A stretch of 64,000 bases of DNA, taken from NCBI GenBank assembly GCA_003604975.1, contig QZIR01000010.1:1-64000 (forward strand), given 5' to 3'. A program made the position numbers and the translations under genes. The number at the start of each line of letters is the position of its first letter. Within the stretch, counting starts at the first letter, position 1. Below the pieces are notes generated by a model. That model made no database searches. It was not told the DNA's origin and saw only the letters and a program-made list of their open reading frames with translations. Origin of the DNA: Desulforudis sp. (GTDB lineage Bacteria > Bacillota > Desulfotomaculia > Desulfotomaculales > Desulforudaceae). Positions 22,465-62,807 of this stretch are shown in pieces.

Positions 22465-22683
22465 TCACTTGGTCAAGGTGAGCACCCACTCCTCACCCCG
22501 GTCCTCGACCTGCACTGTCCAGCCCTGGCTGGTCGCCAGGCGCTTGATGTTTTCACGCGCAGCCTCCGAGTCAGCGATGGCGACAACCTTACCCTTGCCC
22601 TGGGCTTCGATCTGTCTTTTGACCATCAGCATCGGCTCGGGACAGCCAAGACCCCGGCAATCGACCGTGTTGTTATTAGGCAC
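22465..22683 (-). CDS. yedF: YedF/TusA-like sulfurtransferase
   Basis: TusA/SirA-fold protein of 72 residues with the conserved CRGLGCPEPML motif at its N-terminus, where the first Cys can carry persulfide or selenium. YedF typically accompanies YedE. GTG at 22683 overlaps the yedE stop (GTGCCTAA), so translation is coupled, with GGAGG about 10 nt upstream. It is the last gene of the leftward tRNA-yedE-yedF unit. Confidence 0.93.
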   Translation of the reverse strand: MPNNNTVDCRGLGCPEPMLMVKRQIEAQGKGKVVAIADSEAARENIKRLATSQGWTVQVEDRGEEWVLTLTK

Positions 22684-23758
22684 TCTCAGTCACCCTCCCT
22701 TGCTGCAGTACTCTAGCTCCGGACAAGGCGAAACCGATGACTAGAACCACAGCCAACCCCGCCATGACGGCGACCTGCCCGTTCACCGAAACCCCTGCCG
22801 GACTGGCGGCAAGTCCAAAGTTGTGGGCGGTGGCGGCACCGAGCAGAATCCCAAAGAGCGTTACGGCCGAGTCGGTATTGCCTTCAGAAGCCGAGATCAT
22901 CTGGCGTAGCGGACACCCGGCGATCAGGGTGAAGCAGAGCCCGCCCAAGGCCATCCCCAGGAAATTCCACAGGCCGTCAGTATGGGCGATCGGTTGGTTC
23001 TCAAAGCCTAGGGTAAAGTTCCCGAGCGCCAGGTTACCAACTAGCGCGGCCACAAAAACACCGACCATTCCGAACATCAGGTAGGGGTCGCGGAACATAA
23101 TCAGGTCGCGGACGGGACCGATCAGGCACATCCGTGTACGCTGCGCCAGAGCACCCACCACGAGTCCGGCCCCGAGGGAGATCAGGAGAGGGGCGCGCAT
23201 CGCGCCGGGACCTTCGGAGCTGTATAGGAAAATGGTTGAGTTAAAGAGCAGAAAGATCAGCAGGACCAAAAAGATCAGCGGAAACACGTAGCCGTGAGCC
23301 GAGTTCTGACGGTTTACCCGTCCCAATGTAAAACCACGGTTAATAAACCAAATCCCGATCAGGATACCCACCACCAGACCGACCAGACCGACCCAGGCGT
23401 TAAGGTCTCCGGCGGACATCCGGAGGAGCATCCGCAGCGGGCAGCCCAGGAAGACCAACAGGCCGATCATGCCGATAAATCCGAGGACAAACCTGGTGAG
23501 GGTACTGGAACCGCCCACGGAGCGATAGGATTTCGTAGCCAGGGCCGCAATGAAGGCTCCGAGAATAATCCCGGGGATCTCCGGCCTTACATACTGTAGC
23601 TTGGCCGCACTGTGCAACCCAAGTCCACCCGCGATATCGCGTAGAAAACAGGCAATGCACATTCCCATATTGGGCGGGTTGCCGGTTGCCATCAGGATTA
23701 TGGCCAGCGCACCGACCGTAAGCCCGGTCAAAGCAATAAGTCCTTTCCCTTTAAACAT
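22676..23758 (-). CDS. yedE: YedE/YeeE family membrane transporter (sulfur or selenium)
   Basis: Polytopic protein of 360 residues, two homologous halves. Each half has a Cys/Arg loop: MCIACFLRD with FLGCPLRM in the first, and TRMCLIGPVRD with AGCPLRQM in the second. Related YeeE conducts thiosulfate, and the YedE branch is associated with selenium-utilising genomes. The ATG at 23758 is chosen because GAGGTG lies 6 nt upstream; an in-frame GTG three codons earlier overlaps that site. Its leader contains the unusual tRNA at 23786-23878 on the same strand. Confidence 0.93.
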   Translation of the reverse strand: MFKGKGLIALTGLTVGALAIILMATGNPPNMGMCIACFLRDIAGGLGLHSAAKLQYVRPEIPGIILGAFIAALATKSYRSVGGSSTLTRFVLGFIGMIGLLVFLGCPLRMLLRMSAGDLNAWVGLVGLVVGILIGIWFINRGFTLGRVNRQNSAHGYVFPLIFLVLLIFLLFNSTIFLYSSEGPGAMRAPLLISLGAGLVVGALAQRTRMCLIGPVRDLIMFRDPYLMFGMVGVFVAALVGNLALGNFTLGFENQPIAHTDGLWNFLGMALGGLCFTLIAGCPLRQMISASEGNTDSAVTLFGILLGAATAHNFGLAASPAGVSVNGQVAVMAGLAVVLVIGFALSGARVLQQGRVTESA

Positions 23759-23785: not shown

Positions 23786-23878
23786 TGGAGGAGGGAAGTG
23801 GGAATCGAACGCCACCCCCGCCTTGCGGCATGGCCAACGGATTTGCATTCCGCGGGGAGCACCAGCTCCGTTCCCTCC
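23786..23878 (-). tRNA. tRNA with GCA (Cys) anticodon on a tRNA-Sec-like body
   Basis: Read on the minus strand from 23878. The acceptor GGAGGGAA pairs with TTCCCTCC over 8 bp, followed by discriminator T (23789) and an encoded CCA (23788-23786). The D arm is GGAGC/GCTCC with a 4-nt loop TGGT. The anticodon stem GCGGA/TCCGT closes loop ATGCAAA, anticodon GCA at 23846-23844. A long variable arm contains GCC-GCAA-GGC. The T loop is TTCGATT; its stem GTGG-G/CCCAC carries one bulged C (23811). A normal tRNA-Cys has a 7-bp acceptor, larger D loop and short variable region. The 8-bp acceptor, tiny D loop and long arm are tRNA-Sec traits, whereas GCA and U73 are CysRS identity elements. It lies 27 nt before yedE. 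Confidence 0.85.
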
Positions 23879-24001: not shown

Positions 24002-24044
24002 GGGGCGAAGATAGACCCTCTGCGAGGACGCAGTGGTCTTCCCC
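24002..24044. repeat. hairpin element 1 of the repeat cluster
   Basis: Interrupted inverted repeat, GGGGCGAAGATAGACC (24002-24017) against GGTCTTCCCC (24035-24044). It contains the 14-bp direct repeat CCCTCTGCGAGGAC (24016-24029), which recurs at 24091-24104. Confidence 0.6.
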
Positions 24045-24070
24045 GGTTTACACTAGAAGACTACAACCAT

Positions 24071-24115
24071 GGAGAACGCTCAGAAACGAGCCCTCTGCGA
24101 GGACAGGCGTTCTCC
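24071..24115. repeat. hairpin element 2 of the repeat cluster
   Basis: GGAGAACGC (24071-24079) is the perfect inverse of GCGTTCTCC (24107-24115). The end sequence GGAGAACGCTCAGAA is a variant of the family-A end GGAGAGCGCTCAGAA seen at 24149 and 56965. It includes the second CCCTCTGCGAGGAC copy. Confidence 0.6.
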
Positions 24116-24148
24116 TCTCAGTACCTCCCGCTTGAAGGCTACCAGTAT

Positions 24149-24289
24149 GGAGAGCGCTCAGAAGCAAGCGGGGCCCAGCACTCAACGTGCCTTCTGCTAA
24201 GTCGACTCTATGTCCCAACAGGATATTTTTAATGACCCGTATGTCTTTGGATCTCGGCTTGAGTGCTGGGTAGCTTATCAGCGCTCTCC
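24149..24289. repeat. family-A palindromic element, 141 bp
   Basis: Ends are GGAGAGCGCTCAGAAGCAAG (24149 rightward) and, inverted from 24289, GGAGAGCGCTGATAAGC. Inner arms CCCAGCACTCAA (24174-24185) and TTGAGTGCTGGG (24259-24270) pair perfectly. It overlaps the last codons of the lysR gene and supplies its stop codon. The same two end types recur, in the other orientation, at 56878-56965. Confidence 0.7.
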
Positions 24290-25171
24290 TCTTAGTACGA
24301 AGTCCAGGAAGGCCTGGGTGGGGCGGGTGACGACGCGGTCACGGGCATAGATCAGGTAGAGGCTACGCCTAATGGAGAGGTTCTTCACACGGATGGTCCA
24401 GACCTTGTCCAGTTCCTCGGCCCGCTGCACGGACCAGCGTGAAACGAAGGACAATCCCAGGCCAGCCTCCACGGCGGCGAGTACCGCTTCGGTACTCCCG
24501 AACTCGCCAGCGGTCCGGAACACGTCTGGGGGTATATTGTTCTGCCTCAGACTCTCCTCAATGATCCGCCTGGTCCCCGACTGTTTTTCACGTGAAACCA
24601 TTCGTTGGCCGATCAAGTCGGAAGGGCTCACTTCCATCCGGTCGGCGAAAGGATGGCCCACTGGCACGGCCAGTACAATCTCGTCCTCGGCGAAAGCCTG
24701 GCAGGCGATGCCCTCATCCTCAACCGGGGCGCCGACCGCCCCGATGTGGATGGCGTTCTCGCGCAACCGGCCGGTGATCTTTCCGGTGTTGGCGATCTCC
24801 AGGGAGACCTTCACTTCGGGGTACCGTGCGGCGAATCGGCCGAGCAGGGGAGGCAGGACATAGTGACCGGGGATGGTGCTGGCGCCGATATTCAGGCTGC
24901 CCTTGATTTCACCGGTAAAGGAACGGACGTCCTCGTAGGCACGGCCCATGGTGTCCGCCATTTGGAGGGCGTAGTTGTACAGCACCTGGCCGGCGTCGGT
25001 CAGTTCGACCCGGCGACTGGTACGGCTGACCAACTGGATGCCGTAGTGCTGCTCCAGAAGCGAGATGTGCTTACTGACCGCGGGCTGGGTAAGGTTTAGG
25101 TTCTGCGCGGCGCGAGAGAAGCTCTGGTACCGGGCCACGGCGATCAGGGTTTCCAGGTAGTTGAGATTCAT
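24278..25171 (-). CDS. LysR family transcriptional regulator
   Basis: Regulator of 297 residues. The N-terminal winged helix (MNLNYLETLIAVARYQSFSRAAQNL, LTQPAVSKHISLLEQ) is followed by the periplasmic-binding-like effector domain (about 90-295). It resembles the CysL/CbbR branch. ATG at 25171 is used; an in-frame GTG six codons upstream also exists and neither has a clear ribosome binding site. It is divergent from the threonine deaminase gene, a common layout for a regulator and its target. The last four codons lie in a family-A repeat. Confidence 0.92.
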   Translation of the reverse strand: MNLNYLETLIAVARYQSFSRAAQNLNLTQPAVSKHISLLEQHYGIQLVSRTSRRVELTDAGQVLYNYALQMADTMGRAYEDVRSFTGEIKGSLNIGASTIPGHYVLPPLLGRFAARYPEVKVSLEIANTGKITGRLRENAIHIGAVGAPVEDEGIACQAFAEDEIVLAVPVGHPFADRMEVSPSDLIGQRMVSREKQSGTRRIIEESLRQNNIPPDVFRTAGEFGSTEAVLAAVEAGLGLSFVSRWSVQRAEELDKVWTIRVKNLSIRRSLYLIYARDRVVTRPTQAFLDFVLRGER

Positions 25172-62696: not shown

Positions 62697-62727
62697 CAAA
62701 ATAAAAGCCCTACCAAGGTTGGTAGGG
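62697..62727 (-). terminator. riboswitch-controlled intrinsic terminator
   Basis: On the minus strand, CCCTACC-AACCTT-GGTAGGG (62727-62708) is followed by CTTTTATTTT. Its left arm shares the CCCTACC used by the aptamer pseudoknot, so ligand binding and termination exclude each other. Confidence 0.9.
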
Positions 62728-62772
62728 GTCATCAACCACTCTTCGTGGTAGTTGCGGCGAACCCCATCGCCG
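62721..62772 (-). ncRNA. fluoride riboswitch (crcB motif) aptamer
   Basis: On the minus strand the aptamer opens CGGCGATGGGGTTCGCCG, continues CAACT, then a stem ACCAC-GAAGA-GTGGT, and ends TGATGACCCCTACC. This matches the fluoride aptamer layout: GGCGATG helix, AACT, helix, TGATG and a pyrimidine strand pairing with the GGGG loop as a pseudoknot. The downstream terminator gives a typical fluoride-ON switch. It controls the dynamin-like gene and probably the membrane gene behind it. Confidence 0.93.
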
Positions 62773-62807
62773 CACCGGTTAACCACCGGTGTCGTACGGT
62801 TGGCTAA

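Follow-up and report, generated by a model that had tools for sequence, protein, structure and literature searches.

The window, by which we mean the whole 64,000-nucleotide stretch of DNA that was analysed, carries on its minus strand a tRNA gene that combines the body of a selenocysteine tRNA with the marks of a cysteine tRNA, and this gene stands between a selenium-associated regulator gene upstream and a putative selenium transporter gene downstream. The genes of the locus and the elements of the tRNA are as follows:

24278-25171, minus strand: LysR_Se, selenium-metabolism-associated LysR regulator (NF040786, 277 bits, cut-off 250)
23786-23878, minus strand: tRNA assigned to the selC*-type tRNA-Cys (tRNA-ReC), 93 nt, anticodon GCA, U73, encoded CCA
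23871-23878, minus strand: 5′ strand of the acceptor stem, GGAGGGAA, 8 nt (tRNA positions 1-8)
23870, minus strand: linker nucleotide C between acceptor stem and D arm
23856-23869, minus strand: D arm, GGAGC-UGGU-GCUCC, 5 bp with the 4-nt loop UGGU, 99.5% paired among 84 distinct tRNAs
23837-23853, minus strand: anticodon arm, GCGGA-AUGCAAA-UCCGU, 5-bp stem, with U33 at 23847, GCA at 23844-23846, and A37
23816-23836, minus strand: long variable region, 21 nt, with a GCC-GCAA-GGC hairpin core
23798-23815, minus strand: T arm, GUGG-C-G-UUCGAUU-C-CCAC, 5 pairs and one bulged C (23811)
23790-23797, minus strand: 3′ strand of the acceptor stem, UUCCCUCC (tRNA positions 82-89)
23786-23789, minus strand: discriminator U73 (23789) and encoded CCA (23786-23788)
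22676-23758, minus strand: yedE, putative selenium transporter (TIGR04112, 489 bits, cut-off 200)
22465-22683, minus strand: gene for a small TusA/SirA-like protein, similar to the N-terminal part of YedF (PF01206, E 1.4e-16)

Read on the minus strand from 23878 to 23786, with its CCA encoded, the full 93-nt tRNA is GGAGGGAACGGAGCUGGUGCUCCCCGCGGAAUGCAAAUCCGUUGGCCAUGCCGCAAGGCGGGGGUGGCGUUCGAUUCCCACUUCCCUCCUCCA; a CC dinucleotide separates the D arm from the anticodon arm. A sequence-only reading had described this gene as having the shape of a tRNA-Sec, with an 8-bp acceptor stem, a 4-nt D loop and a long variable arm, and as bearing the cysteine marks GCA in a 7-nt loop with U33, U73 and an encoded CCA. 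All of these elements are present, and what that description passed over is the bulged C of the T stem, a feature that is frequent among relatives, yet absent from some. Scoring with covariance models, as the same reading had proposed, bears out the tRNA-Sec shape: the Rfam tRNA-Sec model RF01852 detects the gene at 47.0 bits, just at its gathering threshold of 47 (E-value 1.1e-8 in a small search and 3.1e-8 in the whole genome), whereas the general tRNA model RF00005 returns 46 tRNAs across the genome without this one among them, and ARAGORN found no tRNA in the window. Since both ARAGORN and the general model miss a gene of this type, it is probably under-annotated. Its folding energy (z -1.62) is unremarkable and by itself uninformative.

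A gene that is missed by two general methods and reaches the Rfam gathering line without exceeding it could be a decaying tRNA pseudogene, and comparison with relatives bears directly on this reading. By DNA similarity, relatives could be traced in 18 of the 113 genomes of the class, the host counted, and 17 of these relatives served to train a lineage covariance model, which gives the window tRNA 97.9 bits, as against 51.5 for the host selC, 34 for tRNA-Tyr and 30 for tRNA-Cys. With this model, 72 copies were found in 64 of the 113 class genomes (at 70 bits or more), and a copy was found in 26 genomes of a phylum sample of 398 (at 75 bits or more). Desulfofundulus, Desulfovirgula, Desulfotomaculum and Ca. 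Desulfopertinax are among the named carriers, and copies also occur in some MAGs bearing the labels Deltaproteobacteria, Desulfofervidaceae, Actinomycetota and Zipacnadia.

In an alignment of 88 homologous tRNAs (84 distinct), which is itself fitted to the model, 96.4% of the cells form pairs, compared with 82.1% in shuffles, so that the loss of stems in homologs, which the earlier reading had named as evidence against a true tRNA, was looked for and the stems proved to be kept. Both sides of a pair have changed in 339 cells, as against 96 ± 11 in shuffles, none of 500 of which reached 339, and structures slid along the alignment gave just 12-52 such cells. An independent MAFFT alignment of 17 sequences (A1), which is not fitted to the model, gave 24 against 8.2 ± 2.3, again with 0 of 500 shuffles reaching the observed value. 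In the acceptor stem, pairs are 99.4% intact among the 84 distinct tRNAs and compensatory changes occur in six of the eight. Every stem is thus preserved, with covariation, across the 84 distinct sequences; together with the 97.9 bits of the lineage-specific model, this argues against decay, and the covariation rules out the pseudogene reading, to which we would give a negligible chance.

The cysteine marks are kept as strictly as the stems. U73 is found in all 88 aligned copies, of which 86 carry the anticodon GCA and the other two ACA; position 33 is U in 81 copies, C in six and A in one, and CCA is encoded in the Firmicutes copies. On this comparative evidence, which is decisive, the window tRNA is real and widely conserved in bacteria, and, as judged from the patterns of change in the alignments, its stems and its cysteine identity are under selection.

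Some individual copies depart from the general picture. Two GCA copies from Deltaproteobacteria MAGs (L149:2401-2493 and L153:1794-1886) lack an encoded CCA and have the 3′ end TTTA. Both ACA copies (L072:8172-8268 in genome G018 and L195:3044-3139 in G022) lie directly upstream of yedE, and the same genomes hold a separate GCA copy elsewhere. The T loop is disturbed in L089:1501-1594 (genome G159; GGTGTGAACCC), perhaps because this copy is decaying, and that of its congener L079 (G231) is intact.

The type to which the gene belongs was described in 2017-2018, and it is this description, of the selC* tRNA-Cys, that comes nearest to the survey by the Soll laboratory mentioned in the sequence-only reading (PMC7609411). 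The selC* tRNA-Cys from Mukai 2017 have a tRNA-Sec body, U73, GCA and a bulged T stem and occur in anaerobic Firmicutes (PMC7609411). The window tRNA shares with them the tRNA-Sec-like body, the 8-bp acceptor stem, the long variable arm, U73 and GCA, and, like them, it occurs in an anaerobic Firmicute that also has a canonical tRNA-Sec. Its agreement with them in the T stem is less certain: a bulge is present, but it is a C at a shifted place, near position 52, in a stem of five pairs, whereas four pairs and an unpaired A51a are given for the selC* tRNA-Cys in the review, although perhaps the same structure is only described differently. We are therefore nearly certain that the window gene is a functional selC*-type tRNA-Cys, that is, a paralogue with a tRNA-Sec body and cysteine identity elements. 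The selC* tRNA-Cys of Mukai 2017 are presumably the same as the tRNA-ReC of Vargas-Rodriguez 2018, the study that reportedly gave the group this name and that is said to have found a Desulfotomaculum member to be charged by CysRS, to be recognised by SelB and to recode UGA with Cys in E. coli.

Other known tRNAs are further removed. Canonical tRNA-Sec (RF01852) has in common with the window tRNA the 8-bp acceptor stem, the 4-nt D loop, the long variable arm and a score at the gathering line, but the window tRNA has GCA rather than UCA, U73 rather than G73 and a D stem of 5 rather than 6 bp. Ordinary tRNA-Cys shares GCA, U33, U73 and a near-identical anticodon loop; in the host, however, it has a 7-bp acceptor stem and a short variable loop, in contrast to the 8-bp stem and long variable arm found here, and this structure, together with the non-detection by RF00005, rules out an ordinary tRNA-Cys. 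The allo-tRNAs (8/4 and 9/3), which come from the same surveys, also have a long acceptor stem and a long variable arm, but they carry serine identity elements where the window tRNA has U73 and GCA. In the Desulfobacterales, selC* is accompanied by an anticodon-blind CysRS* and the tRNA has the anticodon UCA (PMC7609411). By comparison with this selC*/selB*/cysS* subtype, no second SelB or CysRS lies beside the window tRNA, where yedE and LysR_Se are found instead.

The host genome (G000; 3.14 Mb, 99.4% complete) was searched for the partner genes that the earlier reading had listed, and all of them were found: a canonical selC (UCA, G73; C13:41195-41284), an ordinary tRNA-Cys with GCA (C15:54996-55067; 7-bp acceptor stem, short variable loop), one selA adjoining one selB, and a selD (G000:C7:10031-10954) with an in-frame TGA (UGA) at the active-site motif GGG*AAKIGP. 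There is one cysS. The window gene thus comes in addition to the usual tRNAs, in a cell that is fully competent for Sec. Among the tested Firmicutes carriers no dedicated CysRS or SelB was found, the genes being single copies except for two SelB in G042, and CysRS is single in each of the 31 genomes tested. SelB is present in 109 of the 113 class genomes, so its co-occurrence with the tRNA is useless as a test of partnership.

A full Sec machinery, together with the tRNA-Sec body, the long variable arm and the ACA anticodon of two relatives, would also suit a tRNA that is charged with Ser, converted by SelA and used to insert Sec at the cysteine codons UGC and UGU; Mukai 2016 reportedly observed Sec insertion at UGU in Aeromonas salmonicida. 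The sequence-only reading had allowed for such charging with Ser and then Sec, but U73 is invariant (88 of 88 copies, against G73 in the host tRNA-Sec), which disfavours the route. The D stem, moreover, has 5 rather than 6 bp, and the ordinary tRNA-Cys would compete for the same codons, so that we consider Sec insertion at cysteine codons highly improbable.

The earlier reading was right to see a hybrid tRNA but did not notice the probable selenium operon in which it lies. The ATG of yedE lies 27 nt past the CCA, with a GAGGTGA Shine-Dalgarno sequence inside the gap, and the TusA/SirA-like gene, which TIGR03527 matches below cut-off and in its N-terminal part only, overlaps the end of yedE. 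LysR_Se lies upstream of the tRNA on the same strand. No terminator was found in the 27-nt gap, and this, with the Shine-Dalgarno sequence there, makes it very probable that tRNA and yedE are co-transcribed; a sigma-70-like promoter was not found upstream of the tRNA. In the host lineage a selenium-uptake operon of the order tRNA-yedE-tusA very probably exists downstream of LysR_Se, with the tRNA as its first cistron. The interval between LysR_Se and the tRNA also holds two imperfect tandem repeats (window 24016-24169, spacing about 75-78 nt), which comprise CCCTCTGCGAGGAC and a 39-nt element and match no Rfam family, even at E 5.

The arrangement recurs across genomes. Within the class, 23 of the 72 copies have yedE directly 3′ on the same strand, in 22 genomes of at least six families, with a distance from tRNA to the start of the YedE profile that is mostly 40-60 nt; in the host's family, each of the eight genomes has the tRNA before yedE, and G022 has two such cassettes. 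The two genes are linked yet separable, since 38 genomes have yedE and no detected selC* and 14 have selC* and no yedE. When YedE, LysR_Se, SelD, the double-cubane reductase and SelB are considered together, one of them lies within 1 kb of 34 of the 88 copies and none within 1 kb of the other 54, as compared with 0 of 37 loci that surround other tRNAs in the host, counts in which the copies are phylogenetically non-independent. The tRNA adjoins selD in G071 and LysR_Se, with selD nearby, in G234; in G388 it lies between yedE and a tusA-like gene. In two non-Firmicutes MAGs (L149 and L167), selB starts 18-32 nt downstream of the tRNA (32 nt in L149). The gene for a double-cubane-cluster anaerobic reductase (NF040772) adjoins the tRNA in G110, G159, G231, G038 and G042, an association that suggests the reductase to be another member of this set of selenium genes; the copies so linked are L065, L079, L082, L087 and L089.

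YedE, SirA-like proteins, LysR_Se and 2-hydroxyglutaryl-CoA-dehydratase-type proteins have been put forward as selenium candidate genes, LysR_Se has been suggested to sense selenophosphate, and in archaea its orthologue HrsM acts, in the presence of selenium, as a repressor of hydrogenases that contain none (PMC5322559). The genomic coupling of the tRNA thus points to a role tied to selenium status. Coupling of the tRNA to yedE was not found in the literature searched, outside which lie the surveys of Mukai 2017 and Vargas-Rodriguez 2018, and, as far as that literature goes, what is new relative to the known selC* is that the tRNA is tied to genes for selenium uptake and for a selenium-associated regulator.

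The tight spacing to yedE and the Shine-Dalgarno sequence within the gap could alternatively mean that the element is a tRNA-like leader which, whether or not it also functions as a tRNA, controls the translation or stability of yedE by sensing charging, SelB or RNase P. A leader of this kind would not be expected to keep its U73 and anticodon so fully or, in Firmicutes, to encode CCA, and 49 of the 72 class copies are not directly before yedE; we regard it as quite improbable.

We would rather see the operon as coupling a recoding tRNA to selenium supply, an explanation that we think the best as a whole and somewhat probable. Its mechanism, which draws on analogy with relatives, seems to us to have about an even chance of being correct. 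The ordinary CysRS would charge the tRNA with cysteine through U73 and GCA, as it must if, as in the 31 genomes tested, there is one CysRS per genome; the Cys-tRNA would be acceptable to SelB by virtue of its 13-bp acceptor/T stack and its long variable arm; and the Cys-tRNA would then enter at SECIS-programmed UGA codons in competition with Sec-tRNA-Sec. When selenium is short and Sec-tRNA-Sec scarce, the outcome would be cysteine versions of selenoproteins instead of truncated ones. The supply of the tRNA would follow selenium status because it lies in a selenium-uptake operon downstream of LysR_Se. For relatives, the literature reports charging by CysRS, binding by SelB and recoding of UGA; for the tRNA described here we infer co-transcription, selenium-dependent expression and a physiological benefit. 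The GCA anticodon is an established identity element of CysRS (PMC7609411). That the Firmicutes copies keep GCA would be explained by a single CysRS that uses it, whereas the Desulfobacterales can use UCA with an anticodon-blind CysRS*. Insertion of Cys at Sec UGA codons with SelB has been proposed for the selC* type, and selenium scarcity is the setting posited for the Desulfobacterales system (PMC9437257); the title of Vargas-Rodriguez 2018, as it appears in the reference list of PMC8762117, likewise proposes Cys at Sec UGA codons via SelB.

That literature also makes the suggestion of the sequence-only reading that the tRNA reads UGC and UGU incomplete, although GCA does suit these codons. 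Since GCA should in fact read UGC/UGU better than UGA, the tRNA might instead serve general cysteine decoding, as a minor regulated isoacceptor that works through EF-Tu and provides extra Cys decoding when selenium or sulfur metabolism shifts. GCA in 86 of 88 copies and the cysteine-like anticodon loop would fit this. Certain base pairs of E. coli tRNA-Sec are antideterminants for EF-Tu, and the corresponding A7:U66 and U50:A64 of the window tRNA differ from them. A plain isoacceptor, however, would explain neither the strong compensatory change by which the tRNA-Sec-like body is kept nor the clustering with selenium genes, and the host already has a normal tRNA-Cys. We therefore think an isoacceptor rather unlikely.

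If the recoding explanation holds, SelD would be an attractive target of Cys insertion, given the in-frame UGA in the host selD. More tentatively, the LysR_Se-controlled tRNA and the selenium transporter might form one selenium-starvation operon in which Cys replaces Sec at UGA codons, including that of SelD, so that the pathway restarts, with the ACA copies upstream of yedE being specialised. Within the class, almost every selD contains an in-frame UGA; the UGA of the host SelD is for this reason compatible with Cys replacement without being evidence for it, and enrichment of UGA-containing SelD is useless as a test of a restart. The conserved place of this hybrid tRNA before yedE and behind LysR_Se yields a concrete, testable hypothesis which, if true, would mean that a natural organism reads a single codon as Sec or as Cys depending on selenium.

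Two minor observations may be added. Copies L045 and L046 have an apparent 3-nt D loop (GGAGC-UGG-GCUCC), which may be a draft-assembly error, and a fluoride riboswitch (RF01734, 46.9 bits) lies elsewhere in the window, at 62716-62780 on the minus strand.
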